Below, in pieces: positions 17,793 to 63,354 of a stretch of DNA of 64,000 nt. Position 1 is the first letter of the stretch, and each line of letters starts with the position of its first letter. The position numbers and the translations under genes are program-made. Under the pieces are notes generated by a model that saw only the letters and a list, made by a program, of their open reading frames with translations, was not told the origin of the DNA and did not search any database. The stretch covers positions 6,386,001 to 6,450,000 of the forward strand of contig JAYKYS010000002.1 in the NCBI GenBank assembly GCA_036924285.1, read 5' to 3'. This DNA comes from Asterella californica. Its lineage: Eukaryota; Streptophyta; Marchantiopsida; Marchantiales; Aytoniaceae.

Positions 17793-17802
17793 GAGCGAAT
17801 TG
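17793..17802. repeat. Left target-site duplication of the large Mutator-like element
   Basis: GAGCGAATTG precedes the left TIR and is repeated exactly at 28,563-28,572. Ten bases falls in the usual 8-11 bp range for Mutator-like elements. Confidence 0.92.
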
Positions 17803-17970
17803 CAGAAATTTACTTGATCCACCCCCAGAAGCAATCCCGGACTTGATCCACCCCCTCTTAACGATACCCTTCTTGATCAACCCCCAAACTGGCTACCGCC
17901 CGCTTTGTAAGTTACTTTGCCACATGGACGTCCAGTCAGATAGTCCTGTCAGCTTTCCGAAGCTGATGTG
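17803..17970 (+). repeat. Left TIR of the large element
   Basis: It contains three CTTGATC motifs at about 17,813, 17,842 and 17,872, about 30 bp apart, each followed by a C/A-rich run (CACCCCC, CACCCCC, AACCCCC). The complement of 28,398-28,562 matches along its length with a few small indels. The comb is a plausible transposase-binding array. Confidence 0.9.
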
Positions 17971-18133
17971 TTATGTCATGTCAGATGTCAGTTGGTGATG
18001 TCTGACGTGGTACAATGTTAGATTAATGCGCGGGAAGACAAGAAAGACTATGCAGCAGAATGTTACATTGCGTAGAGTTTAGTGCAGCACGTTAGCGTTG
18101 AAGTTTTAGAGTGCTCGGTCCACATTCTTGTCG

Positions 18134-18907
18134 ATGGCTGTGCAGATTGTCGCTCTTCGTGAATTCTACGATGAAATCGAAACGATTGAGAAAAATGTAG
18201 AACCACGATGGATCAGATGCGCGATAGTGAAAATCGTCCGCAGCTGCAATGGTTCCATGACTTATCAGGCTTGCGCCAGATGTTTGAAAGCTGCCGGAGG
18301 AGTTCCTAAACAAAAAGAATTCCTATCTCCTGGAGCAAACTCTCCAAGTCCAAGCAGTTGTTGTTCTCATGCTCGTATTGTTCGAGCTTGGAGATTCAGT
18401 ATGTCACTGATGGACTCGTCAACAAAGGAATGGAAAGTTGAAGACTGTGGTGTTTTCACAGTGTGGCAAGCTGGGAATGAACTCTTAGGCATGACAGCGA
18501 CAGAATTTTCCATTTTGTCTTAAAGGAAACAGAAGGAACTTATCCAATCTACTATTTTGAGAGGATTTTGGGAGCTGCAAATCAGTCTCAGCCGGAAAAA
18601 TAGAGAACGCACAGTGTTCGCAGCGCGTAGAGTAGGATGTTCAGAAGCAATTTCTGATGTTATCGAGCGAGTTGGGATACAGTCTATTGTTTGGGACATG
18701 GACCGATTGGTGATGGAAGAACCTATAGTCATAATTAAACATGTTGATCATTGCCGAGACGTATTGACTGAGTTTCGCCAAGTTCGAGATCATATTGCAG
18801 AGGTGAAAGACCGAACTGTGGGTCTGTGTGAAGAAATAAAGAATACACTCTGTGTGTGCGAAGATGCAGTTGAGAACCTCGAGAAATTATACAGTTTGCT
18901 AGAGTAG
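18134..18907 (+). pseudogene. RPA1 C-terminal-like OB-fold protein A (in-frame TAA)
   Basis: From the ATG at 18,134 the reading frame runs to 18,907 with one internal TAA at 18,521-18,523, leaving about 257 sense codons. The first 130 residues resemble the zinc-ribbon OB-fold at the C-terminus of replication protein A large subunit (Rep_fac-A_C family). They show VRCAIVKI-like first strand sequence, TYQACARCLK (CxxC), a second Cys pair (SCCSHA), RFSMSLMD, and the signature VWQAGNELLGMTATEF. Single-stranded-DNA binding would be the expected role. The region after the TAA continues collinear with paralogue B (24,281-25,084), including a basic segment and a C-terminal coiled coil, so the TAA is a disabling point mutation. 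The gene sits just inside the left TIR and points toward palindrome array 1. Confidence 0.6.
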
Positions 18908-19466
18908 CGAAAGAGTATATTTTGGTAACAATGTTGGGTAATATTGCGGAATAAAATGTATCTTCTTCTATATATGTTGTTATCTATTTTGATAACAATG
19001 TCCGGTAATTTTGTGGAATAAAATGTATGCTGTTATCTTTTTGTTTGAATGGTTTTAGAAATGAAATGAAAGTTTTCCGAACTTCAAACGAAACAAACCG
19101 AACTAAACTGAACTTCAAAAGCATCGATATCCTTGCTCGGGCTTCCTTGTAGCACCTTATTCCCTTCTTGGAAAGTCGAGAGAAGTAGAGGCTACTTCAA
19201 GCTTTCGATTAACTTCCTCACACCCTTCCAGGAGGAGAGTTTCTCACGCATGTACAGAGAGTGGAGAGGAGAAAAAGAGGACGAGAGCCAAAACAGTCGA
19301 GAGGAGAGTGGAGAGGAGAGTGGAGATCAAAAGAGGAGGAGAGAGGAGAGGTTTATCGATATTTGAGGAGAGAGCGAAGGAAGAAGAGTGAGGCTGCGAG
19401 CTCTGAGTGAGTAGAAAGGTTGTTGTAAAATTTGATTAACTCTGAGCGATTTTGAAAATCGCTGTG
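18908..19466 (+). other. Intergenic region with polypurine tract, putative promoter of the cargo gene
   Basis: Between RPA-like A and the next gene lies AT-rich sequence with a repeated TTTTGATAACAATG/GGTAACAATG block (near 18,924 and 18,987). This is followed by a GA-rich tract at 19,235-19,420 (GGAGAGGAGAGTGGAGAGG-type repeats). The GA tract is directly upstream of the first exon proposed for the cargo gene. Similar purine tracts occur in plant 5' regulatory DNA; a regulatory role is inference. Confidence 0.35.
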
Positions 19467-19590
19467 ATGAAAATGAGAGGAGTTCCAATTCGAGGTCGAG
19501 ACGGAGGCGTTGGAAGAGGACAAGAGAGCGGAGGATACCACGACGTACCCATCGAAGTGTCGAGAGAGCGGAGGGTACCACAACGGTCCT
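19467..19590 (+). CDS. Putative first exon of the cargo gene, RG-rich
   Basis: The ATG at 19,467 starts 41 codons rich in Arg and Gly (GRDGGVGRGQESGG), reminiscent of RGG-type nucleic-acid-binding segments. It ends at a canonical donor (CCT/GTAAGT at 19,591). The acceptor TTTTTAG at 20,914 joins it in frame to an acidic exon beginning DEEMESMKEG. If so, palindrome array 1 lies within this 1.3-kb intron. Exon structure is inferred from splice consensus and frame only. Confidence 0.4.
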
Positions 19591-19683
19591 GTAAGTTAAC
19601 TAGGATGCTAGAAGTCTTATTTGTATTGCATGTGTTTACCGTCAGTGTATGAATTTGGATTTTCTTTTTCCATGTTAGGGTTA

Positions 19684-20768
19684 GCGAAACGAACATGTTT
19701 CGCCCAAGATTGATGGAATTGGTAGAAATTTCTCGGTAAGATTAGAGCAAAACACGTCAGTTACGTCTTGGACGAGGACGAAACACATGTTTCGTCCTCT
19801 GCGGTCCCATTCTTGTCACAAGGCAGGGCGGAACAGCATGTTTCACCCTGCCCATTCGCATGTGTTTTCATTGAGCAGGGCGATACATGCTGTTTCGCCT
19901 TGCGGGAGGACGAAACAGCATGTATCGCTCTCTACGGTCCAATGTGTTTTCACTGGGCAGGCGATACATGGTATTTCGTCCTGCGGGAGGACAATATATT
20001 ATGTTTCGTCCTCCCGCAGGGCTCATGTGTTTTCACTGGGCAGGGCGATACATGCTGTTTCGCCTTGCCCAGTCTCATTGTTTTCACTAATAGGGCGAAA
20101 CACATGTTTTGCCCTCCCAGTGACCTTATTTGCACTTATCAATCCAGAGGGCGAAACACGGCCTGTTTCGCCTTGCGGGAGGGCGAAACAGCATGTATCG
20201 CCCTCTGCGGTCCAATGTGTTTTCACTGGGCAGGCGATACATGGTATTTCGCCTTGCGGGAGGGCGATACATGCTGTTTTGCCCTCTGCGATCTCATGTG
20301 TTTTCACTGGACAGGGCGATACATGCTGTTTCGCCATGCCCAGTCTCATTGTTTTCACTGATAGAGCGAAACACATGTTTCGCCCTGCCCAATCGCATGT
20401 GTTTTCACTGAGCAGAGCGATACATGCTGTTTCGCTCTGCCTCCTAACCTTATTTGCACTTATCAATCCAGAGGGCGAAACACGGCATGTTTCGTCTTGC
20501 GGGAGGGCGAAACAGCATGTATCGCCCTCACACAGTCCCATGTGTTTACACTGGACAGGGTGAAACAGCATGTTTCGCCCTGCCCAGTCGCATTTGTTTC
20601 ACTGAGTAGGGCGAAACAGCATGTATCGCCCTCCCGGTCCCATGTGTTTTCACTGGACATGTTTCGCCCTCCCAGTGACCTTATTTGCACTTATCAATCT
20701 AGAGGGCGAAACGAGTTGTGTTTCGCCCTCTGGATCCACTTCTCCGTGAGGACGAGTTTCGCCCTTGA
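19684..20768. repeat. Palindrome array 1 (about 22 hairpin units)
   Basis: About 1.1 kb is filled with short near-perfect palindromes built on GGGCGAAACA and TGTTTCGCCC with 0-5 nt centres. Examples are GGACGAAACACATGTTTCGTCC near 19,778 and units near 20,505, 20,557 and 20,608. Many units swap GAAACA for GATACA. Spacers of about 25-35 nt often contain a second inverted pair, CTGCCCAGT and ACTGGGCAG, around CATGTGTTTTC. A longer spacer, CTTATTTGCACTTATCAAT, recurs three times (near 20,125, 20,449 and 20,679), which suggests higher-order duplications. No coding role is evident despite open frames, which follow from the repeat composition. Confidence 0.85.
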
Positions 20769-20914
20769 CGATTAGATCTGCCTTTCTCTTGTTGCATTAT
20801 TCGCTTCCATTTCCTGCATTTCTAATAGTTCTACAATATCCCGGCTGTGTGTCAATAGTTGGATTGTTGTGTTTACGTTTTTGGACATTTTTAATTTGTA
20901 TACGTTCTTTTTAG

Positions 20915-22066
20915 CTGATGAGGAAATGGAGAGCATGAAGGAAGGACCTTCATTGTTTCAATATACTCACGAGGAGGATGAACGATATCATCTGAAGTGA
21001 TGTTGGGTCGAAAAGGAGGAAATGGAGAATTGTTTGCAAGGAGTAGAGGAAGAAGCTGTCGATCGACTTGGGTTACTTATTGCTCTCTCTTTTGAGTTCC
21101 CTCGTCCTGATGTGAGTTTTCATATCTTTCAACAGAGTATTACAATGATTCTTGTGTGTTAAAAGATTCAAACATTGCTTTGATAAGCATACTTATCCTT
21201 ATTATTATTTATTTTGCAGATTCCTTTTTGTATAGAATTCATCCAGTCATACGAAGAAGAAAGTCGTCGAGCTATTGTTCAAGGACGTCATATTGTATTG
21301 GATGAGTTTTTTATCCGAGAGTCTTTAGTTTTGCCAATGGGAACAACAGTACCTCGTCCTCATCATGTGAAGAGAAATCTGATAGAGGATTGATTTCCCA
21401 CAAAAGACTAAAAGGGAAAACGATATTACTGTGGATGTGTGAGTTTCCAGAGTGGAGACCGCTGTTCCAACTTATCAATTGTGTTCTTTTGGCTCGTAGA
21501 AGACCAAAAGAAGTTCCTGGACATTTAGCTCTATACGTGAAAAGTAAAGTAGAGGAGAGTGAGGAGGATTACGATTGGACTGAATTCATTTTGGATTCTT
21601 TGGATGCTGAAATCTCTTCTATGAAAAAGCACATGAACAAAGAGAAATTGGTACGACATCCTGAAACATGGGTGGATATGATCTTGACTCACCTCATGTC
21701 CACATCGGTATACTTCCTGAAGGAGGAAGAGTGGAATCTTCTCAGAGAATTCAACAATCATCAAGTAAGTTTTTATTTTCAGTTCTAAAATGTTTTATGA
21801 CTTTTAAAACTTAGTTTCTTTCTTTTTAGTTTAGGTGAAATAAGTAATTTTTATTGATATTTATTTTTCATCATGGTTAAACATTTTATTTAATAACGTT
21901 ATGTTCAAGTCCTAATTCATTACACTTTCATGTCAAATGGATCTTGCAGATAATCCTCCTCTTATGCAAGATCCTCCTGCTGGGCTAGATCCTCAGGCCT
22001 CTCTTCATGTTCCTCTTGATCAAGATCAAGATCCTCAAGCTTCATATCATCCTCCTCCTTCATCAG
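20915..22066 (+). pseudogene. Middle exons of the cargo gene, gag-like helical and proline-rich region
   Basis: Exons inferred at 20,915-21,111, 21,220-21,764 and 21,950-22,066 are bounded by GT-AG signals (GTGAGT at 21,112; TTTTGCAG before 21,220; GTAAGT at 21,765; TTGCAG before 21,950; GTAAAA at 22,067). The second and third encode an acidic region, then a helical domain with EFPEWRPLFQLINCVLLARR and KHMNKEKLVRHPETWVDM. The fourth is a Pro/Asp/Gln-rich linker (DPPAGLDPQASLHVPLDQD). I do not recognise the domain family. There is an in-frame TGA at about 20,999 and a one-base frameshift near 21,390, so the copy is disabled unless splicing differs. Confidence 0.45.
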
Positions 22067-22239
22067 GTAAAAAATTTGTAGTTGAGTGACTATAGTTGAA
22101 GTTTACGTTTATTTTGTTCCTTTTGTACTAGGCTTTTTTTACTTGTTAGTTTTAAATATATTTAATTCTAAATACAAGTAGTTTAGTTTTATGAATTCAT
22201 TGAATTAATTTATATTTGTTTCGCACTGTATATTTATAG

Positions 22240-23290
22240 ACGATGAGGCTATTCTCATCGCGAGAATGAATCAACTCCATGAAGCGATCAAAAGGAAAGA
22301 GGAAGAGCTTAAGTCCAAAAGCCATGATCTTGAGCATATGACTATCAACTCATGATCACTAAAGAAGAATTGACAACGATACGAGCTGCAGAAGAGTTCT
22401 ATCCTCATCTAGTGACCCCTACTGCAAATCGACGTAAGACCTTAATCCTTGATTTGAATGATCTTTTAGTCCATGTAGGAAGGAACGAGCATGAGTTGAT
22501 GCCAGCTCGTGAGAGAAGATATGTAGTGGAAACTACATCCAAGCAGTATATATGGTACGTGGAGAGACGTGGAGTCAAGCAGTTCATGGAGATATGCCTA
22601 GATAAATTTCATGTCATCATATGGACTTCTCGTACTGTGGTAAACACAGACACCTTACTACGTGCTATGGAGGATGCTGATTATTTGCCTCCTGGAGTTG
22701 CAAGAGCGAAGGTATGCGAATTCTTATGAGATTTTCTTTTCAGTTTTACTTTTAATCGTTTTTTTATATTATATGTTATATTCTTGATCTAAGATATATG
22801 TTCTATTTGTTCTAATACATATGAGTGGCATTTGTAGGTGTCTCACGTTTTTGCTCAAGATATGTTTTTGAAATATAAGACGGTGAGAGAAGTTGCCTTC
22901 GGGAACCACTTATACTTGAAGGATTTTACTGTTCTTCATGACCGTAACTTGAGCACGAGAGACGTTCTGTTGTTGGATGATAGTCCGGTCAAAAATTGTA
23001 CCAATCATCCATTTAATGCTATCCATCCGTCTCCTTTTTCTCCTTTCACTATGGATAGTGATAGAGAGTTATATTTAGAAGCCACCTTATTGCCTTGGCT
23101 TCTTCGTTGGAGAGTTTCCCCCCAGGAGACTCCAGCTTACGTGGAGAGTAGATTTTCACAAGTTTTTGCTCAAGATCCATTTCTGGCCCTCAAGAATTAC
23201 TGGACCAATATTACCCAAGAGGAAGTCAATATCGTATGGAGATCCGTGCCACATAGAGTTTCTATGGATTTGTATCCTAAACTCAAGTGA
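22240..23290 (+). pseudogene. FCP1/NIF-like HAD-domain C-terminal exons of the cargo gene
   Basis: An exon from 22,240 encodes a short coiled coil (IKRKEEELKSKSHDLEHM). A phase change at about 22,345 precedes the frame 22,352-22,711, and an intron 22,712-22,837 (GTATGC...TTTGTAG) joins 22,838-23,290. The domain begins KTLILDLNDLLVHVG, corresponding to the HAD motif I of NLI-interacting-factor/FCP1 phosphatases (DxDx[T/V]) but reading D-L-N-D. The second catalytic Asp is therefore replaced by Asn at the third position. IIWTSRT (motif II-like) and DVLLLDDSPVKN (motif III/IV) follow, with a C-terminal tail. Some plant members of the family also have DLN. Protein dephosphorylation would be the family role; this version may be catalytically weak or only structural. 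Confidence 0.6.
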
Positions 23291-23479
23291 GAAAGATATG
23301 TCTTTTGAGTATCCATTATATAAAAAGAGATTTTGAAAAATGGTTCCATTACTTTATTGTTTTGGAATGAATTGAGTGGATTTTGAAAATGGACTTTATT
23401 GCTTCCGTGTCTGGAATGAAACTGGATTTTGTAAAAAGACTTTAAACTTTACAACTTCCTTGTGAAAGAACAAAACATC

Positions 23480-24140
23480 GGCGGTGAAACATCCCTGTTT
23501 CGCCTTCCCATATCCCTTGACGAGTTCTCTCGGGAGACGATACACTCATGTTTTGACTCCCGGCTCTGCGAAACAGCCATGTTTCACGGAGGGAAGGCGA
23601 AACATGAGTGTGTCGTCCTCCCGCGAGAACTCGCAAAGGGGTACCCCTTAGGTGAGTAATCGCGGGAGGCGATACATCCATGTATCGCCTCCGACAGCGC
23701 AAAACATCCATGTTTCGTCTCTCGACAGCGCGAAATATCCATGTTTCGCCCTCCCGCGAGAACTCGCAAAGGGGTACCCCTTGGCAAGTTCTCGCGGGAG
23801 GCGATACATCCATCTATCCCCCCCAGCAGCGCGAAACATCCACGTGTTTCGTCTCCCGATAGCGCGAAACATTAGTGTTTCACCGCGGGAGGGCGGAACA
23901 TTAGTGTTTCGCTCTGGCGAGAACTCGCCAAGGGATCTGGAAGGCAAAACATCCATGTTTCGCCTCTCGATAACACAAAACATTAGTGTTTCGCCTCTGG
24001 CGAGAACTCACCAAGAGATCTGGGAAGGTGAAACATCCATGTTTCGCCTCCCGACAACACGAAACTCCCGTGTTTCGCCCTCCTCGGCGAAACACTCTAG
24101 TTTCACGCTCGGTGGAGGCGCGGTACACGGTGTTTCGCCT
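23480..24140. repeat. Palindrome array 2 (about 17 hairpin units plus long palindromes)
   Basis: Units follow the pattern GGCGAAACATCCATGTTTCGCC (perfect or near-perfect) with GATACA and ATTAGTG variants. They are spaced by the element CTCCCGCGAGAACTCGC. Two spacers are themselves long palindromes centred on GGGGTACCCC: one at 23,750-23,801 (26-bp arms, 2 mismatches, no loop) and a decayed one at about 23,616-23,668. The array lies between the convergent HAD-domain gene and RPA-like B. Core half-sites match array 1, but the spacer families differ. Confidence 0.85.
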
Positions 24141-24280
24141 CTCGCGGGAGTAATTTTGGCGACACAAAACGAGGAAGATTGGAGTACAAGAACCTTGCGA
24201 AACACAAGTAGTATTGCATAATGAAAGCAGTATACAAAATATAAGATGGACAAGCTAACCATTTACAACCGGTACCATTC

Positions 24281-25084
24281 TTAAAACTCTTTAAGTTTTT
24301 GTAATGTTTCTACTATCTCTGAAAGCTCTCCCTTCTGTTGTCGTTGGAGCTCAACAACCGCTTGCAAATCTCAAACTATACTGAGCAAGCTCGATTCAGT
24401 GTCTTCTGATCTTTCGACTAATGTCACTACCCGATTGTGTAACCGCTCCATCTCTAGAAGTTCAGCGTTATCCCCAAACTTGGCCTTCTCACTTTCTTCC
24501 GAAGGATAAAATGTTACACTGTCCATGACAGAAGCAAGATCTTCTATTGTATCCTCGAACTCGTCCGACTCTGCTATTTCATGTTCCACATCGAACGCTG
24601 TATATCGATTCTGCTTTGTGTTCAATCCTATTTTGAAGCGCCACTTCTTCGAACAAACAACGTTCAAAAGTCTATCTTGCTCTTCGGATGATAACTTCTC
24701 AAAAGATTCTGCGGTCATCCCTAAGAGCTTCTCTCCTATACTCCAAACAACCACTATTGGTAACGCTGCTTCTTGCCGCTCACAAACGCTATAATCAATC
24801 AATCCTAAATGAAATCGATACTGCCTCTTATTTCCCCTTTGACCACAAGCATGCCAAGTCTTTTTGCTGTCGGGCTGCACTTGACTGAAATATAACATCT
24901 TCTTAGCGGAGCTTGATGAGGTCTGTGCAGAGTCTATCACTTGCTTCAAGCACCCCGAGAAATTACAAGCCAAGTACGATATAGAATTCCATTTCCGATT
25001 TTTGATAATCCTTTGAATAGAAGCAACCACCCACATGCAAGGTATGTTACTTATACACTCTTCAAATTCAGCCAACGAACACAT
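24281..25084 (-). pseudogene. RPA1 C-terminal-like OB-fold protein B (late in-frame TGA)
   Basis: The ATG at 25,084 opens a 237-codon frame. It encodes a zinc-ribbon OB-fold like the RPA1 C-terminal domain: SYLACNFSGCLKQV, TWHACGQRG, QYRFHLGLID, and VVVWSIGEKLLGMTAESF. It then has a KWRFKIGLNTKQNRYTAFD strand pair and an acidic, coiled-coil C-terminus. It is paralogous to gene A: the stretch around LLGMTA, the position where A has its TAA, and the following basic strand align without gaps. After the TGA at 24,371 the same frame continues 29 codons of good coiled coil to a TAA at 24,281, so the TGA probably truncates an older, longer protein. Loss of only the tail may leave a functional OB-fold. 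Orientation mirrors gene A, with its 3' end facing array 2. Confidence 0.6.
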
Positions 25085-25453
25085 TGAAGCACTGAAGTAG
25101 AAAACACAACTTTCTCTATGAGGAGTTGAAGGATAATATGCGAAGAGAGTTTCGTCTTCAATCGCTCAACACCGTGTCTAATCCTGAGACCTCATTACAG
25201 TTCCCGTCCTCACTGAGTCGCTCTCTCTCCAGCCTCAGATTTTACATAAACAGCCATATAACACTACTACTAAAGAGCCGTTGGACAACTCCATTGGATA
25301 CTACGGTAAGCCAACCAACGAAGGAAGTACAACCCGTAACCATAAAGTCCATGTTCGAGGTCGGTCTGTTCTGCTCAGTCTTCACTCACTTCTGCATTGA
25401 TACACGGGCACAAAACAGAGGAACATGAATGAATGTTTCAAGAAATTTAAACA
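25085..25453. other. Spacer between RPA-like B and the transposase gene 3' end
   Basis: No gene is seen. It would hold the promoter of RPA-like B and the transposase terminator region, given that the two genes are in tandem on the minus strand. Confidence 0.4.
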
Positions 25454-28115
25454 TTACAGCCAAAAAAACACTCTCGGAAAGGAGCTCTGTAACGAACCTG
25501 CTGGTACATCACTATTGTTGTCTGTTTCACCGAGTTCTTCATCCGAGGTCGTGAAAACTACATCATCCTCTCGATGCAATGTTGGCATGCTAGATTGATT
25601 CGATAGGTGCTCAGCGTAGTTGATATCTGCTATATCATTTCTTTGACATGTTCGAACATTGTGTCCAACCTGCTTGCACCGACTACATCTTCCAACCTGA
25701 TTTTGCCTGCTGCCACTAGCCGTAGTAGATGATATGCCAGATCGTCTCGTTCTATGAATAGGAAATTCTGACGAAAAATGAGACATTTGTTCATCTGCTA
25801 CATCGAACTCCATTTCCACAGCATTAACACTACCACTACCAGTAACAGGAGGAAGTCCCGTGACACTCTCTTCAACGAAATCAGTTGCATTTCCTGGAGC
25901 TCTAACTTGTGAGGATTGAGTATTGTTATCCATTCGTACCACTCGGTGCCTTCCTCGTCGAATTGCAACAGGGGGCGGATCACAAGTCCAAACTGGTTCT
26001 AAGTCGTCCATTACTATTAGAGGCAGATGTTGTTGTCCATAAATTGAAAATAGTGACGAACTGTACCAAATTTGATCAACGAGTGTCATAGGATTCTCTC
26101 CCACCTCTCTGTCATCCCATTTCCTGGTACTCGACGCAAGTGCACGTTCCTCGTCCATTCGAGTTATGTTTCACTACATGAGTTGATCCGGAACTGTGAC
26201 AGCAAACTGTGGCCTCTCTAATGTTGGAAACTTGACAAATGAATCCTTCTGCAGCTTGCTCATTCTTTGTCTGTCTGCTCCTTGCAAACTTGGTGAGTAG
26301 ATTTGTCTCCTGCTCTAGTTGTTGATGTCTCGTGGTAAATTGTTGCATGATGTAATACCAAATTTCAAGCAAAATTCTCAAAGGAGCATTAAAACGGATG
26401 GTCCTCAGAGCGTTGTTCATACTCTCAGCTACATTTGAAGTTACCTTCCCATATCGTGGCTTCAGAAATGCACAGCGACTATATCTTTCTGGCATGATAC
26501 CTCGTAAATAAGTAGCCAACTGCTTGCCTCGATCTCCGGAGTCATCGAGTTTTTTTAAAACATTGTTATACCTATCACATCACATTGCATTAAAACACAC
26601 CAAACAAACTAATACTATAACTGACATAAGAAGCTACACCAACTAACCAAATGCTCACAGATGAGGTGAGATTCTTACGCTTCTGGATTTTTCGCGTATA
26701 AACAAGCCAAAAAAGGTTTTTCGGCCTCCTTGCCAAATCTCGCCCTCACGTTCATTCTAATGTGTTGGGCGCAATGACCATGAGTCACCGTCGGAAATAT
26801 CTCAGCAACGGCTTTCTCCAATCCTTTTTGTCGATCGCTGATGATGACAGTTTGAGGACTCTCAATTCCATTTATTGATTCTTTCAATAAACCACAGAAC
26901 CAAGTCCAGTTGGATGTATCCTCTCTCGGAGCTACAGCATAAGCTAAAATGATAGCCTGGTTTGCACCATCGAGTGTGGAAGCCAAGAAAATTTGACAAG
27001 GAAACTTACGAGACTTTGAATGACAAGCGTCAAGACAAATCATTTTCTGACAGGAGCTAAAAGCATTACGAGTAGCACTATGACAGACAAAAGAACGACT
27101 GAAAATTGTTGGATGATTTATCCATGTGTCCCATTCCACAACAGTTAAAGGATCCACATCTTTGATATTTCTGCATACAGATGGAATATAATGAAAAGAG
27201 ACCATCTGATTACGTTCTAACCAATCTCGTGAATGCTCACGGCTTCTCCAAACTTGGTTATATGGAGCTCGTTTATTAAAACTAGTCCGAATTTCTTCCA
27301 TTAAATTCCTGATTGGGATGTTCGGATCTATTGCTACTCTATTACACAAAACTTGTGCAAGGAATTTAGAGTTTGAGGCTGGTCCACGCCAGTAAGCTTG
27401 TTGTCCAGGGCAAGTATGCTCCAGATTACACACACTGATGGGGATTCTCCCTGTGAATTTCCCTCTTTGTGCACGTACCCTCCATTTGCACGACTGCGTT
27501 ATTTACCCTTCTCTTGCCTCAACTCCAGTTCCATAAAATGTTTCTCTACCAGAGGTCAAATATCGCATCTTCTCGCCACATCGATCATTCTCAGGAACTC
27601 GCCGTGTTCTTTGGATCACAGTGACATCTTCTCTTCTTCTTCTGCTCTCTCTCTCTCTCTGTCGTTGGTTGGGTGAACTCGTGGAAGCTGCGAGACTGAC
27701 TACTTATCAAATTTGGATCCAAGTTTTCGTTGTTTCCAACTCGCTGTTCTATTGATTTTCTGCAACGAATCCTCCCTCCATACCGACAGACGCGCACTCT
27801 GTGAGTAGAATATGACTTGAGCTTGTTACAAGCTCTACTGTTCAGAAAACACCAACAATCTATAGCAAAGTCAAAATCCTTCCAGCATTGAAAATCTCCC
27901 CTCAACTTCAGTGTCCCATCGACCTCTTTCAAAGCGTCTAATGTTTTTTCTTGAAGTACGCGGTCAGCAAGACGGGTGTCAATCATCTCCTGCCGCCATC
28001 GCTCCAGTATCATTTCGTCTTCTTCCTCGTCGCTTCTTGCATCTAAAAAGAATTCCCGCTCTTCATCTTCAAAATATAATCCATCGAAGGAATCTAAATC
28101 ATTATCCTCCGACAT
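25454..28115 (-). pseudogene. Mutator-like (MULE) transposase, multi-exon
   Basis: The ATG at 28,115 starts an acidic N-terminal exon (to about 27,730) that ends in a Cys/Arg-rich putative DNA-binding segment (WCFLNSRACNKLK, VRVCRYGGRIRCRKS). The exon 27,433-26,675 and the frame below 26,574 carry the DDE core: Asp in CLDACHSK (27,029-27,031), Asp in IISDRQKG (26,834-26,836) and Glu in VAESMNNA (26,424-26,426). CAQH lies between the second Asp and the Glu, as in the family. A SWIM-type finger starts (CTCVEYQEMG), but the following CxH pair is not visible because the frame changes at about 26,110-26,160. The last exon has a CCHC zinc knuckle (CSRCKQVGHNVRTC). Catalytic residues are intact, but the SWIM break makes function doubtful. 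It would bind the TIRs and catalyse cut-and-paste transposition in the nucleus. Confidence 0.8.
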
Positions 28116-28129
28116 TATAGCTAAGTGCT

Positions 28130-28260
28130 TACATGCACTGCAAATCTATGTCCCAGATGCCCCGCTGTTACCTCGCTGTTACCACCATGTACTGTGCAAA
28201 TCTATGTCCCAGATGTCTCGCTGTTACCACCATATACTACTGTTCACAAATCTGCACTGT
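28130..28260. repeat. Subterminal tandem repeat upstream of the transposase
   Basis: A unit of about 60 bp containing TGCAAATCTATGTCCCAGATG and CGCTGTTACC is repeated twice with a partial third copy, between the transposase start codon and the right TIR. It may be promoter or transposase-binding sequence (inference). Confidence 0.65.
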
Positions 28261-28350
28261 TAATAGTCATTCCTTCTTTTCGATGTCGAACACTGTATCC
28301 TGCCAGTACTTGTTTTGCTGTGCAGTTCCGCTTCTCTTCCTGCGCACTAG

Positions 28351-28411
28351 TTTCTTCCCGCATCAGGTCACACGTCAGCTTTCTTCCTGCATCAGATCAC
28401 ACGTCAGCTTC
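28351..28411. repeat. Direct repeat of about 30 bp next to the right TIR
   Basis: Two adjacent copies of a unit with CATCAGGTCACACGTCAGCT (second copy with A for G) straddle the inner border of the right TIR. The left TIR has only the equivalent of one copy. Confidence 0.7.
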
Positions 28412-28562
28412 GGAAAGCTGACAGGACTATTTGACTGGACGTCCATGTGGCAAAGTACAAAGCGGGCGGTAGCCAGTTTGGGGTCGATCAAGAAAAGAAT
28501 CGTTAAGCGAGGGTGGATCAAGTCCGGGATTCCTTTTGGCGGGTGGATCAAGTAAATTTCTG
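28398..28562 (-). repeat. Right TIR of the large element
   Basis: It is the inverted match to 17,803-17,970, with three GATCAAG motifs at about 28,485, 28,516 and 28,546. It ends AAATTTCTG, directly followed by the TSD. Confidence 0.9.
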
Positions 28563-28572
28563 GAGCGAATTG
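28563..28572. repeat. Right target-site duplication of the large element
   Basis: GAGCGAATTG is identical to 17,793-17,802. Confidence 0.92.
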
Positions 28573-29706: not shown

Positions 29707-32660
29707 GTGCCGAAACTGGCAATGGAAAGCCCGGCCGTGCCGAGCTATAAGCGGGTTTTGCAGCGTGGGGTCTCGCCTGATGATGCTTCATGGCAATACA
29801 GTCTACGCGACCTCCCGCCCCCATCGCTGGGAGGGGCTTTGAAGCTCATCACTGTCACAAGCACTGATATTAAGCTCAGCTTCATAAAGAAACCGATCAA
29901 CAGAGCCCTTGACTTCGGTGCAACCTCATATCTTTCGCCAATCTCCGATTCCCCGACTTGCCCATCAGCAAGTCGAGCCAGTATATCCTACGGCTGCTCA
30001 CGACTGGCATCGACCTCAACGGCTCAACCTACAGATTCTATGGCCACAGCAACAGTCAGCTCCGGTCTCGCACATGCTTCCTGTACGCTGGCAGCGTGAT
30101 TGACATCAGCGCCCGAATCAACTCATTACGCAATTTCTCCAAAATCATGTCTACTGCAAAGCGGGCCAAGAGAATCGGCCTTCTTTTCTCAGCTGCAGAG
30201 ATGGGGTACGCACTGAACTCGTCCGACTGCGATTAGGCATGTTTTCACTAATGGCTGCGGCTTTATTTCGCCCAGGTTCGCCCGGACATTTTCCGGCCAT
30301 CGCAAAATCGTTTCTCGGAACGAAAAATACGTACCCAGTGTGTTCCAGATTCGATATAAAGGATATAAGGGGATCGTGACACTGAACCCGAATTTGGATC
30401 GACAACGAGGACCAAAGACCCGGCGCCAACGCCATCCTCTGGTTCAGTTTCGAGATTCTATGCGCAAATTCAAAGGGTGCACAGATGACACCTTCTCTGT
30501 GGTGGACTACTCGAAACCCTACATGTTCGGGAAGCTCAATGGCGAGCTCGTCACGTTGCTGTCTTGTCTCGGCATTCGGGACGAGGTTTTCCTTCAGAAA
30601 CAGGAGGAGTACTTCGAATTTATCAAGGACGCGACCCGAGACCCTCTCGTCGGCTTCCATTTCGCATCCTACTGCAATCAGCCGGACTTGGGTGAGAAGC
30701 TAGCTTTGGAGGGGCTCGAACCTGTGCAGTCGGAACTCCGAAAGCTACAGAGCCGAGAATGGGCTGGGCACTTCGACAAGAACGAGCACGAGCGGGTGAG
30801 AATCATGATTCGAGAATCTCGTCTACTCTTTGGGGTCAGTGATCATGGGAATAATCTTGCCGAGGATCAATGTCAAGTGAGAATCACACTCGAAGGTGGT
30901 GGAATCAGAACTCTGGAGGGTGCCGAAGTCATCGTGGCCCGTAATCCTTGCCTTCACCCTGGAGACATACGCAAGCTGCGTGCAGTACGCATTCCCGAAG
31001 TTCTCGATCACCTGGTGGATTGCATTGTGTTCTCTGTGCAAGCTTGCTGCCTCGCTCATGAGCGGAGGAGATCTGGATGGTGACAAGTTCTTCGTCTGTT
31101 GAGACAAAGAGTTGATTCCCTCCAAGCTCTTCGAGAAAAAAACCCCACGAAAAAACATTTCACATGTAGATATGATCAGATATTTTGCCAATTACAACAC
31201 CGTTTCTCTGGGTCGAGTGAAGAATTGTTATCTGGAATGGGTGTGCATCAAAGGGGCGGATAGTCAAGAGTGTCTGGAACTCAATGCTCTCTTCTCCTCA
31301 TGCGTCGACGGTGAACGAGTGAAAATTCTTGAACACGTGCAGTCCCCTCCCAAGAACCTCAACATGAACCGGGAACCATTCATTCCCGACAAGCTGTGCG
31401 ATGCGGTGAAAGTTGCGGCTTTATCGTGGCCCACGATTTGCCTTTCGGAGTTCGAACTTTTCCAGCTCGTGCATCGTTGGGCTTTAGTCCATGGTGTACC
31501 ACTGACGAGATTTCTTTGGCATTTTGACTTCGGAGCCTTCACTGCAGTCCAGAAGCAGTGGATTGCTGCTCAAATGCCTGACACACTGAACATGCAGTGC
31601 TTGTTATACAACGGGCTCAACCAGTCGACACTGATCAGGCACAGTGAGCTCGAGGCGTACAATCTCCACTGGCCTGTTCTTCACTGGAAACGAATCTACT
31701 CATCCTACGAGCACGACTTCCAGCGCTTTTTCCACTTCGTCGAAACATCCCTCGAGCAGTTCCACATCAGATTGATAATCATCCGTATCGATGACCGTCT
31801 GACAGTCGCCATGTACATTCCTGTGAGGATCGCTCACAATGAGGACTACGTGGTCGATGATGCCGTGCGGGTGCTCGGTTTCACTCCGACCGGAGTCGAT
31901 CGGCGCCATAACAGTAGCACCGTTCAAGGCTACCGTTTGTACTTCGATGATGATACCTTCCAGCTGTTCCAAGGCAAACGAGCCAACACGTTCGTGTTCA
32001 TGACAGCAGGAGGAGGAGCAGATGGTTCGAGCTCGAGCTCGTCACCAGTGCTGCGTACAAGCATCGCTTTACAGAAAATAAATCGGTCGATTCAGCGGCA
32101 CGTGGGTTTCGTGAAGAGGACTCCGATAATGGCCGCCGAGATCTACGTAATCAGCAATCGTGACCGTCTTGGGCATGAGATTCTCAATATCGCCATGAAC
32201 CAGGTCGATACGCAGGGTGATTTGATTCCTCTGGTGCAGAACATCCCGCGAGAGTATGAGCTCTCGGACATGACGTCTGTCGAGTGGAATGATCTACCCC
32301 TTCATTGTACAAGTATAATTCGAGATCACAACTGGAACGAACTGGAACTCCTTCAAGATATGGCTGACTTCGAGCTGATCTTCGAGACTTGCATACAGCA
32401 CAATGGGCACGGTGAGCTATCCTTCATTGTGTAGTACATCCTAAATCATCCGCTTCTATGCAGCCCAAATTCGGACATTGTAGCACGAATCTTAGCTCTG
32501 CTCGAGGATGTACCCATGCTTGTAATCCCTGTGCTTAATGCTCTTCTCTCTCGTGAAGAGATCGGGGGATCAAAGGTCAAGTTTCCAGAGTCGTATGGTG
32601 AAAAAAGTCTCCATCTCTATCTTCTACATGTTCTTCTGCTCACAACAAACACCATCATAA
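29707..32660 (+). pseudogene. RNA-dependent RNA polymerase (cellular, fungal-like), disrupted
   Basis: This encodes the double-psi-barrel RdRP of RNA silencing, which converts single-stranded RNA to double-stranded RNA for Dicer. Recognisable segments include FYGHSNSQLRSRTCFL, AKRAKRIGLLFS, VFQIRYKGYKG, VARNPCLHPGDI and the catalytic MSGGDLDGDKFFV (DLDGD at 31,070-31,084), followed by IPSKLFEKK. The reading frame breaks at about 29,950, 30,235 and 31,040 (one-base shifts). A TGA at 31,100-31,102 replaces the Trp normally after FVC. After 32,410 a 62-nt GT-AG intron (GTGAGC...CTATGCAG) restores an open frame. The three catalytic Asp codons survive, but the gene as read cannot make a full protein. 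Motif wording is closer to fungal than to plant RDRs as I recall the families. Confidence 0.8.
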
Positions 32661-32685
32661 TCTAGTGCTTCCAGAAGTCGACTGA

Positions 32686-34588
32686 TTGCTCAAGGCAGCA
32701 CCTCTGAATTCAATTCCACTTTCAGATTTCTCAGAGCTCCTCACGCGGATCCCCATGTCCACTCGCCGGCCCGAACTAGTTTACGAGCTCCTTCACACGT
32801 TAGTAACTGATCACTCCCCTCGTCTTCTCTCGTATTCTGGTATATGTGGAGTCAGTTTGGATGCACTAGCTGTTGCTCTAGATCGAGCTGGAGAAGCAGC
32901 GGAATTGTGTCCATGTGACGATTGGGATGTTCCTACCGGTTCTTCGGAAGTAATGGTCACCCTCCGTCGTAGCCAACGAGACCGTGGCGTCTTCGAGGCA
33001 AACTTGCGCTTAGACGCTCCCAACAGTATGAGGAATGGGGATCACATTCGTTGTTGAACCCACCAACAAACCACTGAGAAGATGTGCCGTCCTGGATGCT
33101 TCAGTGAAAGGGACAGAGGATGGTGTGGTCAAACTGAAACTCGTTCAGCCAGCTCCACCCGAAGTGGGGACATGTTCGTGGGAGGTATTCTCATGCGGCA
33201 GCATGGTCACGATGAAGGTGATGATGGACTCACTGACCAAGTTGTTGGTTGAACAGGATGAATGTTGTGGGGTTTATGGAGCCATCTTGCGGCTGGGCGA
33301 CAGAACACATGGCACTTATGAGACTGATAACAACATCGAGCCCGTGACGGCAGGAGCTGATCGAAAGCACTACGAGAATGAGAAGATGAATGAGCGTCAG
33401 AAAGAAGCTGTAGTTCCGGCCATGGAAGAGCAGTTGATATTAGTTTGGGGACCAGCCGGGACGGGCAAAACCACAGTGGTAGTAGAAATCCTGATGCAGC
33501 TGAGCAGCAGATTTCCAACCCAGAAGCTCCTGATCACAGCATCCACTCACAATGCAGTAGACAATGTCCTCGAAAGGTTTGTGGCGGCAAGGAGCGACAG
33601 TGGAATCGGAGACAGTGACCAGATCGTGCGAATTGCAACCGGATACTCCAAAGTTTCGCCATCCTTGAGAAAATACACTCTCGATGCCTTCGTTGGGAGC
33701 AACAATCTTCACTCCAACCATCGAGCAAAGCGAGAAGCAGAGAAGAGGCTGAAGAATGCCAAGGTCGTCTTCACTACTTGCACCGGAGCCGGACTCGGAA
33801 TCGTTCGTAACGTAAACTTCGACACTGCTGTAATCGACGAAGCCTCCCAGCTTGCCGAGGCTAATGCTCTTGCTCCTCTGGTTAAGGGCCCGCGCAGAGT
33901 CATTCTTGTAGGAGATCATGTGCAGTTACGGCCCACAGTTCGGCCTCAGGCTGAGGTTTATCAGTTGGACACTTCTTTGTTCGAGCGGCTGTATGTGGCA
34001 CCACCGCGAGCGGACACCAGGGTGATGCTTAATGTTCAGTACCGAATTCATCCAGTCGTTGCTGCTTTCCCGTCTCGTGAATTCTACGACGGCAAGTTGC
34101 TCGATGGTGTTCGCGCACAAGATCAGAAGATACTATCCTCCTCGTTTCCATGGCCGGTTCTCTCGACTGATAGTCCGGAATTCGGTCGGATTGTTCTCGT
34201 TCGATGTTCCACGAAAGAATTTGGCTTGTCCTCGAAGAAAAACGATGGGCAAGTGAAGACGTGCGTGAAGATTGTGAAGATGCTTTTTGATAGAGCTGAC
34301 AGTGTGAAGGGGAAGGCTTCTGGAGCAAACCTTCCAAACGATTTGAGAGTTGAGGTGTCCACAGTCGATGCATTTCAAGGGCGTGAGGCAGATATCATTA
34401 TAGTTTCAACGGTGCGGTGCAATGACCACGGAGACTTGGGGTTCGTTACCGATCCTCGCAGGATGAATGTGACTTTGACTCGGGCCAGACTCGGAACCAT
34501 AATCGTCGGGGATGAGGCAACCTTGACAGCGCGGGGAGGTTTGTGGCAGAAGCTCGTTGCAGATGTGCAGAAGGTAGACTTGAATTGA
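32686..34588 (+). pseudogene. SF1 helicase of the NFX1/Sen1/Upf1 type, one frameshift
   Basis: The ATG at 33,035 opens a 517-codon frame with a complete SF1 core. It has motif I GPAGTGKTT, Ia ITASTHNAVDNVL, II DEAS (IDEASQLAEA), III GDHVQLRP, IV QYRIHP, V VDAFQGREADIIIVS and VI MNVTLTRAR. These match the DNA2/NAM7 (AAA_11/AAA_12) group that includes Upf1, Sen1, NFX1-like and the RNAi helicases Hrr1 and SDE3. The frame 32,686-33,057 is collinear upstream sequence (barrel and helices), separated by a one-base insertion near 33,049. It follows the RdRP on the same strand with no clear intergenic gap, so it may be the C-terminal half of one RdRP-helicase protein. An alternative is a separate helicase gene starting at 33,035, which would be intact. 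Confidence 0.75.
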
Positions 34589-36781: not shown

Positions 36782-36853
36782 TGCCCCCAGTGAGGATCGA
36801 ACTCACGACCTTTCCCTTACGAAGGGAAGGCACTACCACTATACTATGGAGGC
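36782..36853 (-). tRNA. tRNA-Thr (anticodon CGT)
   Basis: A 72-nt cloverleaf reads on the minus strand. The acceptor stem GCCTCCA pairs with TGGGGGC (one G-U), with discriminator A. The D-arm contains AGTATAGTGGTAG, which also serves as the A box. The anticodon stem TTCCC/GGGAA holds the 7-nt loop TTCGTAA with anticodon CGT. The T-arm is GTGAG-TTCGATC-CTCAC, with GTTCGATCC as the B box. No intron and no encoded CCA, as usual in eukaryotes. A T-run terminator lies about 35 nt downstream. It would decode ACG threonine codons. Confidence 0.9.
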
Positions 36854-38769: not shown

Positions 38770-40077
38770 ACACTTGAAAATTAATTAATGGTGGTAGGAA
38801 ATAGTGCACAGTTCTCACTCACAGGCGGGCAGTTCTCCGGACAGCTTTCTGTCACACGCTTGAAAATTAATTAATGGTGCATTAGTTTGCTAATCTGTGA
38901 CATCACTATAAAGTTCAAGTGGAACCGTACAGTAATGTTCCGATAAAATTGAGTATCTAGATCAGAGGATCATAACCTCTGTGTTTATGATGAATGTCTT
39001 TGATCCTCCCCAAGGTGGAACTGTACAGTGATGTCACATCTTAGCAAACTAATGCATCATTAATTAACTTTCAAGCGTGTGATGGAAAGCTGTCCGGAGA
39101 ACTGCTCGCGTGTGAATAAGAACCGTGCACTCTTTCTTGAACCATCATTAATTAACTTTCAAGTGTATGATGAAAACTGAAACAAAGAGTCTAGAATGAT
39201 TAACTGACATCTCTCCAGGAGTTTCGGATAAAATTGGGTATCTAGATCAGAGGATAATAACCTCTATGTTTATGATGAATGTCTTTGATCCTCCCCAAGG
39301 TGGAACCCTATAGTGATGTCATAGATTAGGAAACTAATGCACCATTAATTAACTTTCAAGCGTGTGATGGAAAGCTGCCCAAAGCGCTGCCCGCGTGTGA
39401 ATGAGAACTGTGCATTATTTCCTAAACCACCATTAATTAACTTTCAAGTGTGTGATGGAAAACTGCTCGGAGAACTGCCCGCGTGTGAATGAGAACTGTG
39501 CATTATTTCTTAAACCACCATTAATTAACTTTCAAGTGTGTGATGGAAAGTTGCCCCGAGAACTGCCCGCGTGTGGATGAGAACTGTGCACTATTTTCTA
39601 AGGCATTGACCTAAGCTGCCCGTAGAACTGCTAGCGTGTGAATGAGAATGAGAACTATGCACTATTTCCTAAACCACCATCAATTAACTGTCAAATGTGT
39701 GATGGAAAGTTATCTCGAGAACTGCCTGTGTGGATAGGAACTCTGCACTATTTCTTAAACCCAGAAGGAGGGACTTTTGAATGAGAACTATGCACTATTT
39801 CCTAACCCTAGAAGGAGGAGCTTTTTTCCTAAGGCATTGACCTAAACTGCCCCGAGAACTGCCCATGTGAATGAGAAGCGTGCACTATTTCCTAAACCTA
39901 GAAAGAGAGGCTTTTTTATCTAAGGCATTGACTTAAATTGCCCGTAGAACTGCTAGCGTGTGAATGAGAATGAGAAATGTGCTCTATTTCTTAAACCACC
40001 ATTAATTAATTTTCAAGTGTGTGATGGAAAGTTACCTCAAGAATTACCCACGTGTGGATGAGAACTGTGCACTATTT
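38770..40077. repeat. Satellite/fold-back array, left block
   Basis: Tandem degenerate units of about 80-100 bp combine GAGAACTGTGCACTATTT, CCTAAACCACCATTAATTAA, CTTTCAAGTGTGTGATGGAA and a CCGAGAACTGCCCGCGTGTG block. Some have the variant AGAAGGAGGGGCTTTTTT. At least nine copies of the TGCACTATTT core are present. The same family fills 51,660-52,434 and 57,426-57,830. Confidence 0.8.
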
Positions 40078-51659: not shown

Positions 51660-52434
51660 AAATGAGAACTGTGCACTATTTCTTAAACTTAGAAGGAGAG
51701 GATTTTTCTCTAACGCATGCTGTCCGGAGAATTGTCCACGTGAATGAGAACTGTGCACTATTTCTTAAACCTAAAATGAGGGGCTTTTTTTTCTAAGACA
51801 TTGATCGAGAACTGTGCACTATTTCTTAAACCTAGAAAGAGTGGCTTTCTTTTCTAAGGCATTGACCTAAACTGCCCGCGTGTGAATGGAAATGAGAACT
51901 TTGCACTATTTCTTCAACCATCATGAATTAATTTTCAAGTGTGTGATGGAAAGTTACCCCGAGAACTGCCCGTGTGAATGGGAATGAGAACTGTGCACTA
52001 TTTCTTCAACCATCATGAATTAATTTTCAAGTGTGTGATGGAAAGTTACCCCGAGAACTGCCCGTGTGAATGGGAATGAGAACTGTGCACTATTTCTTAA
52101 ACCACCATTAATTAACTTTCAAGTGTGTGATGGAAAGTTACCCTAAGAATTGCCCGCGTGTGGATGAGAACTGTGCACTATTTCCTAAATTCAGAAGGAG
52201 GGGCTTTTTTCTAAGGCATTGCCCTTAGCTGTTCGGAGAATTGTGCACTATTTTCTAAATCTAGAAGGAGGGGCTTTTTTTTCTAAGACACGCTGCCTGG
52301 ATAACTGCCCATGTGAATGAGAACTGTGCACTATTTCCTAAACTCTGAAGGAGGGGCTTTTTTTCTAAGACATGGGTTTTTTTCTAAGGCACTGACCTAA
52401 GCTACCCGGAGAACTGCTGTGTGAATGAGAACTG
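51660..52434. repeat. Satellite array, middle block
   Basis: It holds about nine degenerate units with the GAGAACTGTGCACTATTT core and AGAAGGAGGGGCTTTTTT or CAAGTGTGTGATGGAAAG blocks. The copia element is inserted at its right end. Confidence 0.8.
52430..52434. repeat. 5-bp target-site duplication of the copia element (left)
   Basis: AACTG is repeated at 57,426-57,430. It lies within a satellite unit (GAGAACTGTGCAC) that is restored when the element is removed. Confidence 0.9.
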
Positions 52435-52663
52435 TGTAGAAAGATCGATACTTCGAGGACACTCCAAGAAGAGAGAGAGCGAGTAGACAAGGAAGTAAAA
52501 TAGGAATGAGATGAGAGAGGCTTTGCCTCTCTCTGTATATATAGTGGAGGTGAGTACAAGGGAAACCCTAATGGTGGGTTAGCCCTCTAACTAACTCTAA
52601 CAACCCTAACCACTCCGGCTAATGGTAGCCGTCGATCTACTGGAGCTTGGGACTATATCAACA
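52435..52663 (-). repeat. 3' LTR of the copia element
   Basis: 229 bp, identical by eye to 57,197-57,425. The polyprotein stop codon (52,606-52,608) lies 58 bp inside it. A TATATATA promoter box occurs near 52,536. Confidence 0.95.
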
Positions 52664-56859: not shown

Positions 56860-57184
56860 GTCCTAAAACTTTCGTTTTGGTCGAAAAAGATCCGTTTGAA
56901 AAACTGCCGCTGGAAATCTCCAAATCGACTGAAACTTGGCCCAGTACACAATTCGCACCTTCTGAACAAGACAGCCCTAGAAGGGCTGGTCGACAGAAAT
57001 CAGCGAGAAAAAATCGTCTAGGCCTCCGAAATCGCGTTCAAAGTTTCTGGTGGCGAAAGAAACGGTTTCGCCTCACCCGAACGCATCAGCAGGATAGTGC
57101 TCGACATCAGGCACAACTCCGGCTGCTCTCTCCTGTACTCCAAACTCCATCTTGCTCATCAGCAAGGGACACACACTCTCACCA

Positions 57185-57196: not shown

Positions 57197-57425
57197 TGTA
57201 GAAAGATCGATACTTCGAGGACACTCCAAGAAGAGAGAGAGCGAGTAGACAAGGAAGTAAAATAGGAATGAGATGAGAGAGGCTTTGCCTCTCTCTGTAT
57301 ATATAGTGGAGGTGAGTACAAGGGAAACCCTAATGGTGGGTTAGCCCTCTAACTAACTCTAACAACCCTAACCACTCCGGCTAATGGTAGCCGTCGATCT
57401 ACTGGAGCTTGGGACTATATCAACA
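57197..57425 (-). repeat. 5' LTR of the copia element
   Basis: 229 bp. It contains the TATATATA box (near 57,298), and transcription would run leftward. Confidence 0.95.
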
Positions 57426-57850
57426 AACTGTGCACTATTTCCTAAACCTAGAAGGAGGGGCTTTTTTTCTAAGGCATGCTGCCCCGAGAACTACCTATGT
57501 GAATGAGAACTGTGCACTATTTCCTAAACCCAGAAGGAGGGGCTGTTTTTTCTAAGGCATTGACCTAAACTGCCGCGTGTGAATGAAAACTGCACTATTT
57601 CCTAAACCCTGAAGGAGAAAGAGTTTTTTTAAGACATTGATCTAAGACTGCGACCACATAGTAAGAGCCCCAAGGAGGGGTTTTTTTTCTAAGGCCCCTC
57701 CTTCTTTTTCTAAGGCATGCTACTCGGAGAACTACCCATGTGAATGAGAACTATTTCCTGAACCCAGAAGGATGGGCTTCTTTTCTAAGGAATTGACCTA
57801 AGACTGTGGCCATATAGTAGAGCCCCAAGGATCTTAAGACTGGGTCCAAA
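57426..57850. repeat. Satellite array, right block
   Basis: It starts with the AACTG TSD and continues the unit interrupted at 52,434. Four to five further degenerate units follow, ending near 57,830. Confidence 0.8.
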
Positions 57851-63295: not shown

Positions 63296-63354
63296 ACAAC
63301 CTATCTCCTCTGCTGAAAAAGAGAATGCTTTACCATGACCCCATTATCATCTGC

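Follow-up and report, generated by a model that had tools for sequence, protein, structure and literature searches.

Mutator (MuDR) and other Mutator-like elements with terminal inverted repeats (TIR-MULEs) encode a MULE DDE transposase with a zinc knuckle, have long terminal inverted repeats (TIRs) and are flanked by a target-site duplication (TSD) of 10 bp. Pack-MULEs consist of captured host gene fragments and are normally without a transposase of their own. Plant Helitrons, which have a Rep/helicase protein and no TSD, encode an RPA-like protein. The VANC protein, known from the VANDAL elements of Arabidopsis, carries a DUF1985-type domain. VANDALs are described as non-TIR MULEs in passages of PMC13317346, and according to passages of PMC5735166, VANC binds short motifs that lie as tandem repeats in the introns of VANC21 and VANB21 and upstream of VANA21. 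These motifs build up dynamic repeats, both intronic and upstream, as parts of PMC5735166, PMC13317346 and PMC10398659 put it. Here we describe an element of 10,760 bp at 17803-28562 of a 64,000-nucleotide stretch of the Asterella californica genome (contig JAYKYS010000002.1, positions 6,386,001 to 6,450,000), below called the window. It is a TIR-MULE whose relatives share an old and selectively kept set of genes, and whose internal arrays of short palindromes would, by a somewhat probable analogy, play the part of the VANC motifs.

The first-pass annotation of this DNA had proposed an element with matching TIRs and a perfect 10-bp TSD. This is borne out: the TIRs measure 178 and 173 bp and are 88.8% identical, and the TSD, GAGCGAATTG, matches perfectly on both flanks. 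The transposase contains a MULE DDE domain (PF10551, E value 1.1e-14, exceeding the cut-off), which together with the long TIRs and a TSD within 9-11 bp defines the element as a TIR-MULE. From left to right it carries RPA_L (+), a six-exon FCP gene (+), RPA_R (-) and the transposase (-), in addition to two arrays of short palindromes. The features in the window are as follows.

17793..17802, no strand: left target-site duplication (GAGCGAATTG), a perfect 10-bp match with the right flank
17803..17980, +: 5' terminal inverted repeat, with CTTGATC-CCCCC units repeated inside
18134..18907, +: RPA_L, the left RPA70-DBD-C-like gene, with an in-frame stop at 18521-18523; 254 amino acids open in related copies
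19467..23290, +: FCP gene, with RGG-rich exon 1, middle domain, coiled coil and FCP1-like HAD (haloacid dehalogenase) domain (PF03031); frame broken
19467-19590, 20915-21111, 21220-21764, 21950-22066, 22240-22711 and 22838-23290, +: FCP exons
19684..20745, no strand: palindrome array 1, FCP intron 1; 28 GCGAWACA/TGTWTCGC half-sites within the intron
23484..24141, no strand: palindrome array 2, spacer between FCP and RPA_R; 17 half-sites within the spacer
24281..25084, -: RPA_R, the right RPA70-DBD-C-like gene, with a C-terminal coiled coil; truncated by a stop to an open reading frame at 24371-25084
25454..26576, -: transposase exon 2, with the third acidic residue (NVAESMNN), a SWIM-like CxC...CxH and a CCHC knuckle; frameshifted
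26675..28115, -: transposase exon 1, with the MULE DDE domain (PF10551); frameshifted
28390..28562, -: 3' terminal inverted repeat
28563..28572, no strand: right target-site duplication (GAGCGAATTG)

The FCP gene model was built from three families, and the exon positions were transferred to the window by eye. Compared with open relatives, all four genes of the window copy are broken: RPA_L and RPA_R have one stop each, and the readings of FCP and transposase contain gaps and many stops.

We searched the genome (516.7 Mb in 773 contigs) for relatives; part of the candidates were scored, so all counts from these searches are lower bounds. There are at least 40 matches to the TIR (40 scored of 400 candidates), 140 to the transposase (140 of 1526), 151 to RPA_L (150 of 529), 145 to RPA_R (145 of 815) and 150 to the FCP exon (150 of 1182). 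A genome scan with PF03031 finds many further FCP1-like exons, at least 150 (150 scored of 596). At C43:6354825-6734342 at least seven FCP1-like exon matches are clustered; two pairs of them are shifted by an identical 76.4 kb, which may reflect a segmental duplication.

Family A, to which the window copy belongs, was sampled through ten further copies. Eight of these are close to one another; they are 11.1-11.9 kb long and their long blocks are mostly 97-99.7% identical to the copy C1_8.04, with stretches at 90-96% in one of them, C32. The other two, C81 and C526, are more diverged. Perfect 10-bp TSDs flank six of the eight close copies, and none was found for four of the eleven elements examined (C313, C729, C81 and C526, the ends of the last two being uncertain). 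The presence of TSDs around near-identical, dispersed copies indicates that family A has moved recently. No stop interrupts any of the four coding regions in five of the eight close copies, of which two are ungapped (one is the reference of the comparison) and three have in-frame gaps. In the remaining ones the transposase of C1_8.04 has an 8-base gap, RPA_R of C313 has one stop and three genes of C32 are broken. Separately, at C313:29606857-29709899 at least five transposase matches, 86-87% identical, lie on one strand over about 100 kb, four of them spaced 23.6 kb apart; this is probably a tandem duplication containing an element.

Families B, C and D were studied through one copy each, and B and C were chosen from transposase matches at about 81% and 76%. 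The B copy (9,994 bp) and the C copy (10,593 bp) end in TIRs, and each is flanked by a perfect 10-bp TSD (CTAGCTGAGC and ATATATCCAC, respectively). Their gene set comprises a transposase (850 amino acids in B and 857 in C, 851 in family A), an RPA70-DBD-C-like protein (the RPA_R orthologue, 267 and 273 amino acids), an RGG/coiled-coil/FCP1-like protein (639 and 646 amino acids, 644 in family A) and palindrome arrays. The FCP exon borders are largely common to the three families, with one extra exon each in B and C. For RPA_L there is no separate match in the B or C copy; the sole match with an E value below 1 is the RPA_R locus.

The linkage of these genes can be seen genome-wide. An FCP match lies within 15 kb of an RPA_R match in 86 of 145 cases (1.5 on average at random, and at most 7 in 1000 shifts), at a median distance of 2.5 kb and on opposite strands in 85 of the 86 pairs. 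RPA_L is found within 20 kb of 31 of the 44 family-A transposase matches, judged from the first 73 RPA_L matches, always on the 3' side of the transposase (31/31) and 29 times on the opposite strand. Within 15 kb of the transposase matches, neither RPA_R nor FCP occurs among the scored matches in 15/44, 5/41, 17/37 and 17/18 cases for the four identity classes, the first of which is family A.

Between A and B/C the FCP/RPA_R block has opposite orientations with respect to the transposase. In 23 of the 44 family-A transposase matches RPA_R shares the strand of the transposase and FCP lies on the other; in 23 of the 41 B-class matches it is FCP that shares the strand and RPA_R that does not. Such a flip would fit a composite origin, in which a convergent FCP-array-RPA_R block was inserted, as a selfish passenger of no use to transposition, into a simpler element of transposase and RPA_L, in one orientation in A and in the other in B/C. 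The absence of the block from the family-D copy and the presence of RPA_L in A, not in the B and C copies, point the same way. We nevertheless hold this origin to be very unlikely, given that the module is under purifying selection to the point of silent-site saturation and that FCP recurs at loci where the transposase is 32-37% identical. Further, no separate mobile-unit ends were noticed, although these were not searched for systematically.

By Nei-Gojobori counts the ratio of nonsynonymous to synonymous divergence (dN/dS) for FCP is 0.126 between A and B, 0.172 between A and C and 0.134 between B and C. For RPA_R it is 0.120 between A and B, and the A-C and B-C comparisons are saturated at silent sites. 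In the transposase, silent sites are saturated in all three comparisons and the corresponding ratio of proportions (pN/pS) is about 0.3. Amino-acid identities across the three families are 80, 66 and 67% for FCP versus 68, 64 and 63% for the transposase, i.e. FCP is conserved at least as well. These values indicate that FCP and RPA_R are under purifying selection, and drift of the cargo is unlikely given the low dN/dS and a conservation that matches that of the transposase. Among 5.8 billion proteins no close homologue of FCP or RPA_R was detected at the sensitivity of that search; the sole relative of the FCP protein came from the liverwort Riccia sorocarpa, while the named transposase matches were from flowering plants.

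Capture of genes by MULEs is known, as passages of PMC13317346 describe, and random capture of host gene fragments in the manner of Pack-MULEs would be one source of such cargo. This is extremely improbable here, since the same cargo recurs in the same relative orientation in many copies, with common exon borders and under purifying selection, and since the protein search gave no close homologue of either gene. Unlike in Pack-MULEs, a transposase is present and the cargo is conserved across families. The same three observations (recurrence, selection and the lack of close homologues) led us to reject both random capture and recent host duplication. The first-pass annotation had considered that other copies might lack all cargo, or that the cargo might be recent host duplicates. 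Instead other copies keep it, both the five close family-A copies with four stop-free coding regions and the B and C copies with FCP, RPA_R and transposase, and it is old, with dN/dS of 0.12-0.17. The cargo is thus an organised, old and selectively kept set encoded by the element, apparently a standing toolkit instead of captured debris.

The palindrome arrays consist of dyad units, GCGAWACA followed by a spacer of mostly 3-5 bp and TGTWTCGC. There are 73 half-sites in the A copy, 51 in B, 70 in C and 46 in the window copy, where shuffled sequences give means of 0.45-0.68 and a maximum of 3; the remaining 53,240 bases of the window contain none. Practically all half-sites of the three families (193/194; A 73/73, B 51/51, C 69/70) lie in FCP intron 1 or in the spacer between FCP and RPA_R. 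The genome, read on both strands, has 190 sites with the strict palindrome GGCGATACAN{1,4}TGTATCGCC and none with its reversed control. Of 50 listed places 47 are within 10 kb of an element gene, and the other three have none among the scored matches. Half-sites that face each other are most often 11-13 bp apart and those that stand back to back 17-19 bp, giving a repeat of about 30 bp that is seen in all three families. Of 68 palindromes in A, B and C, 66 have the same W base in the two arms; in the decayed window copy this is true of 3 of 10.

It is conceivable that the arrays act as RNA, with hairpins in intron 1 and at the 3' end that control the FCP transcripts, serve as a source or a decoy for small-RNA pathways, or influence splicing. 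Array 1 is intronic and hence transcribed, and the palindromes are able to form stems. However, on the FCP sense strand the arm flanks contain 49 G-U pairs versus 52 A-C pairs; selection on RNA should give an excess of the former. Since there is none, RNA pairing is not favoured and the arrays look more like binding sites in duplex DNA. In addition the half-site itself is conserved, beyond what mere pairing demands, and a spacing near helical turns suits DNA. With the hairpin reading unsupported by the G-U test, we consider a role as RNA quite improbable.

Family D provides a contrast. Its transposase is 60-63% identical and an RPA_L-type gene 43%; there is no match to FCP in this copy and none to RPA_R beyond the RPA_L-type open reading frame. 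This copy has 0 GCGAWACA half-sites and no close inverted repeats, which supports the link between arrays and FCP. It also makes it unlikely that the arrays are binding sites of the transposase: they are mid-element, and they are absent from a copy whose transposase is about 60-63% identical. A related observation is the locus L074 (C102:38056600-38065599), where an element of about 2.6 kb at 98-2678 has inverted ends and an RPA_L-like open reading frame as the only gene found; this derivative also has no GCGAWACA half-sites.

The proteins resemble known domains to different degrees. The HAD domain of FCP matches PF03031 with 51.7 bits, above the cut-off of 21.8. FCP1/NIF phosphatases have the catalytic motif DxDx(T/V). 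FCP lacks this motif: at the corresponding place A, B and C read DLNGL, and the window copy reads DLNDL. Because of this replacement, the FCP1-like domain is probably a module for binding or scaffolding and not a phosphatase. The RPA-like proteins, 254-274 amino acids as read, contain one oligonucleotide-binding (OB) type domain and a C-terminal helix, without the N-terminal DBD-A and DBD-B domains of RPA1. They match PF08646 with E values of 6.5e-6 to 3e-4 and 21.0-26.4 bits, below the cut-off of 28.5. Their likeness to RPA is based on these sub-threshold matches and on a fold comparison of the RPA_R model (AlphaFold, predicted local distance difference test, pLDDT, 53), in which RPA_R resembles, with low confidence, the DBD-C OB fold of RPA70. 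A sequence search of the PDB with RPA_R of the window gave no relative, and a profile search gave a weak coiled-coil match.

The first-pass annotation saw in the gene set a system for replication or excision. As an organised, element-encoded set it stands, by its recurrence, age and purifying selection; the proposed role is a weaker possibility, with the arrays lying mid-element and the RPA likeness limited to DBD-C. In such a system the palindromes would extrude as cruciforms or hairpins in single-stranded DNA, to be coated or processed by the RPA-like proteins. The resemblance of RPA_R to DBD-C in the low-confidence model, the matching W bases in 66 of 68 palindromes and an RPA-like gene also in the FCP-less family-D copy are all compatible with this. 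We judge it unlikely, as the arrays surround one gene in the middle of the element and not its ends, are absent from the RPA-bearing family-D copy, and the part of RPA present is DBD-C-like alone. To our knowledge, other MULEs transpose without such a system.

Three distant loci, sampled from the FCP1-like exons, extend the comparison. At L071, L072 and L073 the FCP genes are mostly 41-60% identical, exon by exon. L071 and L072 have an RPA-like open reading frame 29-31% identical to RPA_L over 95 amino acids (E values 2.9e-7 and 1.1e-6), with no Pfam match for that of L071, as well as C-terminal parts of a transposase, 32-37% identical. In L073 the RPA-like frame matches PF08646 weakly (E value 0.0063), and no transposase was seen in the fetched piece. 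GCGAWACA sites number 0, 0 and 4 in the three loci. Another motif, CAGTGCGA/TCGCACTG, takes their place, with 42, 42 and 45 copies (the last in the first 5,600 bases of L073) against shuffle means of 0.2-0.4; in A, B, C and D there are 7, 1, 2 and 0 copies of CAGTGCGA. Hairpins are also in excess, 43, 37 and 17 versus shuffle means of 5.6, 4.8 and 3.3, and in L071 and L072 most of them lie ahead of FCP exon 2, between exons further along that gene, on its 3' side and close to the end of the transposase. Judged from these loci, the distant families keep the architecture and change the palindromic motif. Positions 4314-10000 of L073 (C32:4828900-4838899) form an almost perfect palindrome whose arms, about 2.8 kb long, each contain an RPA-like open reading frame and the last FCP exon.

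By analogy with VANDALs, we think it somewhat probable that the arrays are duplex-DNA sites of an element-encoded factor and work like the VANC/motif anti-silencing system. The transposase would move the element through its TIRs as in other MULEs. The arrays, spaced by about one and about three helical turns, are predicted to be sites for a dimeric factor. The binder would most likely be the FCP1-like protein, because the arrays track the FCP gene; its FCP1-like domain would probably serve as a binding or scaffold module. The factor would act in cis, and in trans on sister copies, and keep the element transcribed, either by countering silencing or by self-activation, like VANC. The RPA-like proteins would probably assist at single-stranded or transcription/repair intermediates, which is the least certain part.

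A wider proposal is more tentative, and we would not yet expect it to hold in full. In a lineage other than Arabidopsis, possibly of liverworts, a clade of TIR-MULEs may have evolved a VANC-like, sequence-specific self-protection independently. Here an RGG/coiled-coil/FCP1-pseudophosphatase protein, helped by RPA-like partners, would bind the palindromic arrays within and next to its own gene and protect sister copies from silencing. From family to family the protein and its motif would change in step, the motif being GCGAWACA in A, B and C and CAGTGCGA in the more distant ones.

Several observations weigh against a VANC-like role of the FCP protein and its arrays. The middle domain of FCP has no Pfam match and its AlphaFold model a pLDDT of 53, so no DNA-binding fold is evident. 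In A, B and C the arrays are linked to RPA_R just as tightly as to FCP, so that RPA_R could be the binder, and the arrays could evolve in concert without any binder. The FCP-less contrast consists of one family-D copy and the short derivative L074. The division between motifs is not absolute either, with four GCGAWACA sites in L073 and seven CAGTGCGA sites in the family-A copy. Finally, 15 of the 44 family-A transposase matches have no scored RPA_R or FCP match within 15 kb, which decay and the partial scoring may account for.

The rest of the window contains other genes and repeats. At 30217-34585 (+) three open stretches match an RNA-dependent RNA polymerase domain (PF05183, E value 5.7e-57, then a weak match), followed by a helicase of the superfamily 1 (SF1) type (AAA_11/AAA_12). 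Together they may form an RNA-dependent RNA polymerase gene that includes a helicase; it lies some 1.7 kb away from the element. A tRNA-Thr (CGT) gene is found at 36782-36853 (-). A single open frame of 1418 amino acids at 52609-56862 (-), with gag, integrase and reverse transcriptase domains, belongs to a copia-type retrotransposon, and pieces of reverse transcriptase, RNase H and integrase from another retrotransposon lie at 60722-63343 (-). Tandem arrays with periods of 61-92 are present at 39340-39601, 51746-52184 and 57425-57651, and their consensus units have a similar stretch around GTGCAYTATTTCYTMAAC.

In the open-access literature, whose matches were partly covered and which leaves most subscription papers outside, we found no paper that describes RPA-like or FCP1-like genes as a regular part of MULEs. 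In one MULE survey (PMC6446971), examined by term search, the terms replication protein, accessory, ULP, Marchantia, liverwort and phosphatase do not occur. If the VANC-like reading is true, MULEs have a second multi-gene kit for counter-silencing or self-regulation, made from different proteins and palindromic sites. The co-evolution of transposons and host silencing would then become testable beyond Arabidopsis, and the several families within a single genome would serve as natural replicates. An old and selectively maintained set of RPA-like, FCP1-like and transposase genes makes this an unusual autonomous DNA transposon even if there is no anti-silencing mechanism.

With Mutator (MuDR) and other TIR-MULEs the element has the transposase with its zinc knuckle, the long TIRs and the 10-bp TSD in common; it adds the RPA-like and FCP1-like genes, for a total of four, and the internal palindrome arrays. 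An RPA-like protein is shared with plant Helitrons, from which the element differs by its TIR/TSD structure and DDE transposase; no Rep/helicase domain was found in the scanned open reading frames. The Riccia sorocarpa protein R1sor_023161, 21% identical to the FCP protein over 80%, has the RG-rich N-terminus, the middle domain (hhalign probability 97.3) and, by eye, the FCP1-like C-terminus, but its HAD motif is further altered (DIFGL), and the protein has no Pfam match. As in the Ulp1-carrying KIU/Kaonashi MULEs, described in passages of PMC13317346, a conserved non-transposase gene is part of the element. It differs from these by its TIRs, and Pfam scans of its proteins show no Ulp1 domain. 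Pfam scans of FCP, the RPA-like proteins and the middle domain also gave no VANC/DUF1985-type match at Pfam sensitivity; this and the presence of TIRs indicate that the element is not a member of VANDAL/VANC, to which we liken it from its sequence. What it shares with VANDAL21/Hiun-type elements of Arabidopsis, as far as passages of PMC5735166 and PMC13317346 describe them, is a multi-gene MULE with genes beyond the transposase and a short motif, varying among related families, in dynamic repeats of introns and other noncoding parts, here almost confined to FCP intron 1 and the spacer (193 of 194 half-sites). What sets it apart is TIRs of about 175 bp, RGG/FCP1-like and RPA-like proteins and motifs that are palindromic.

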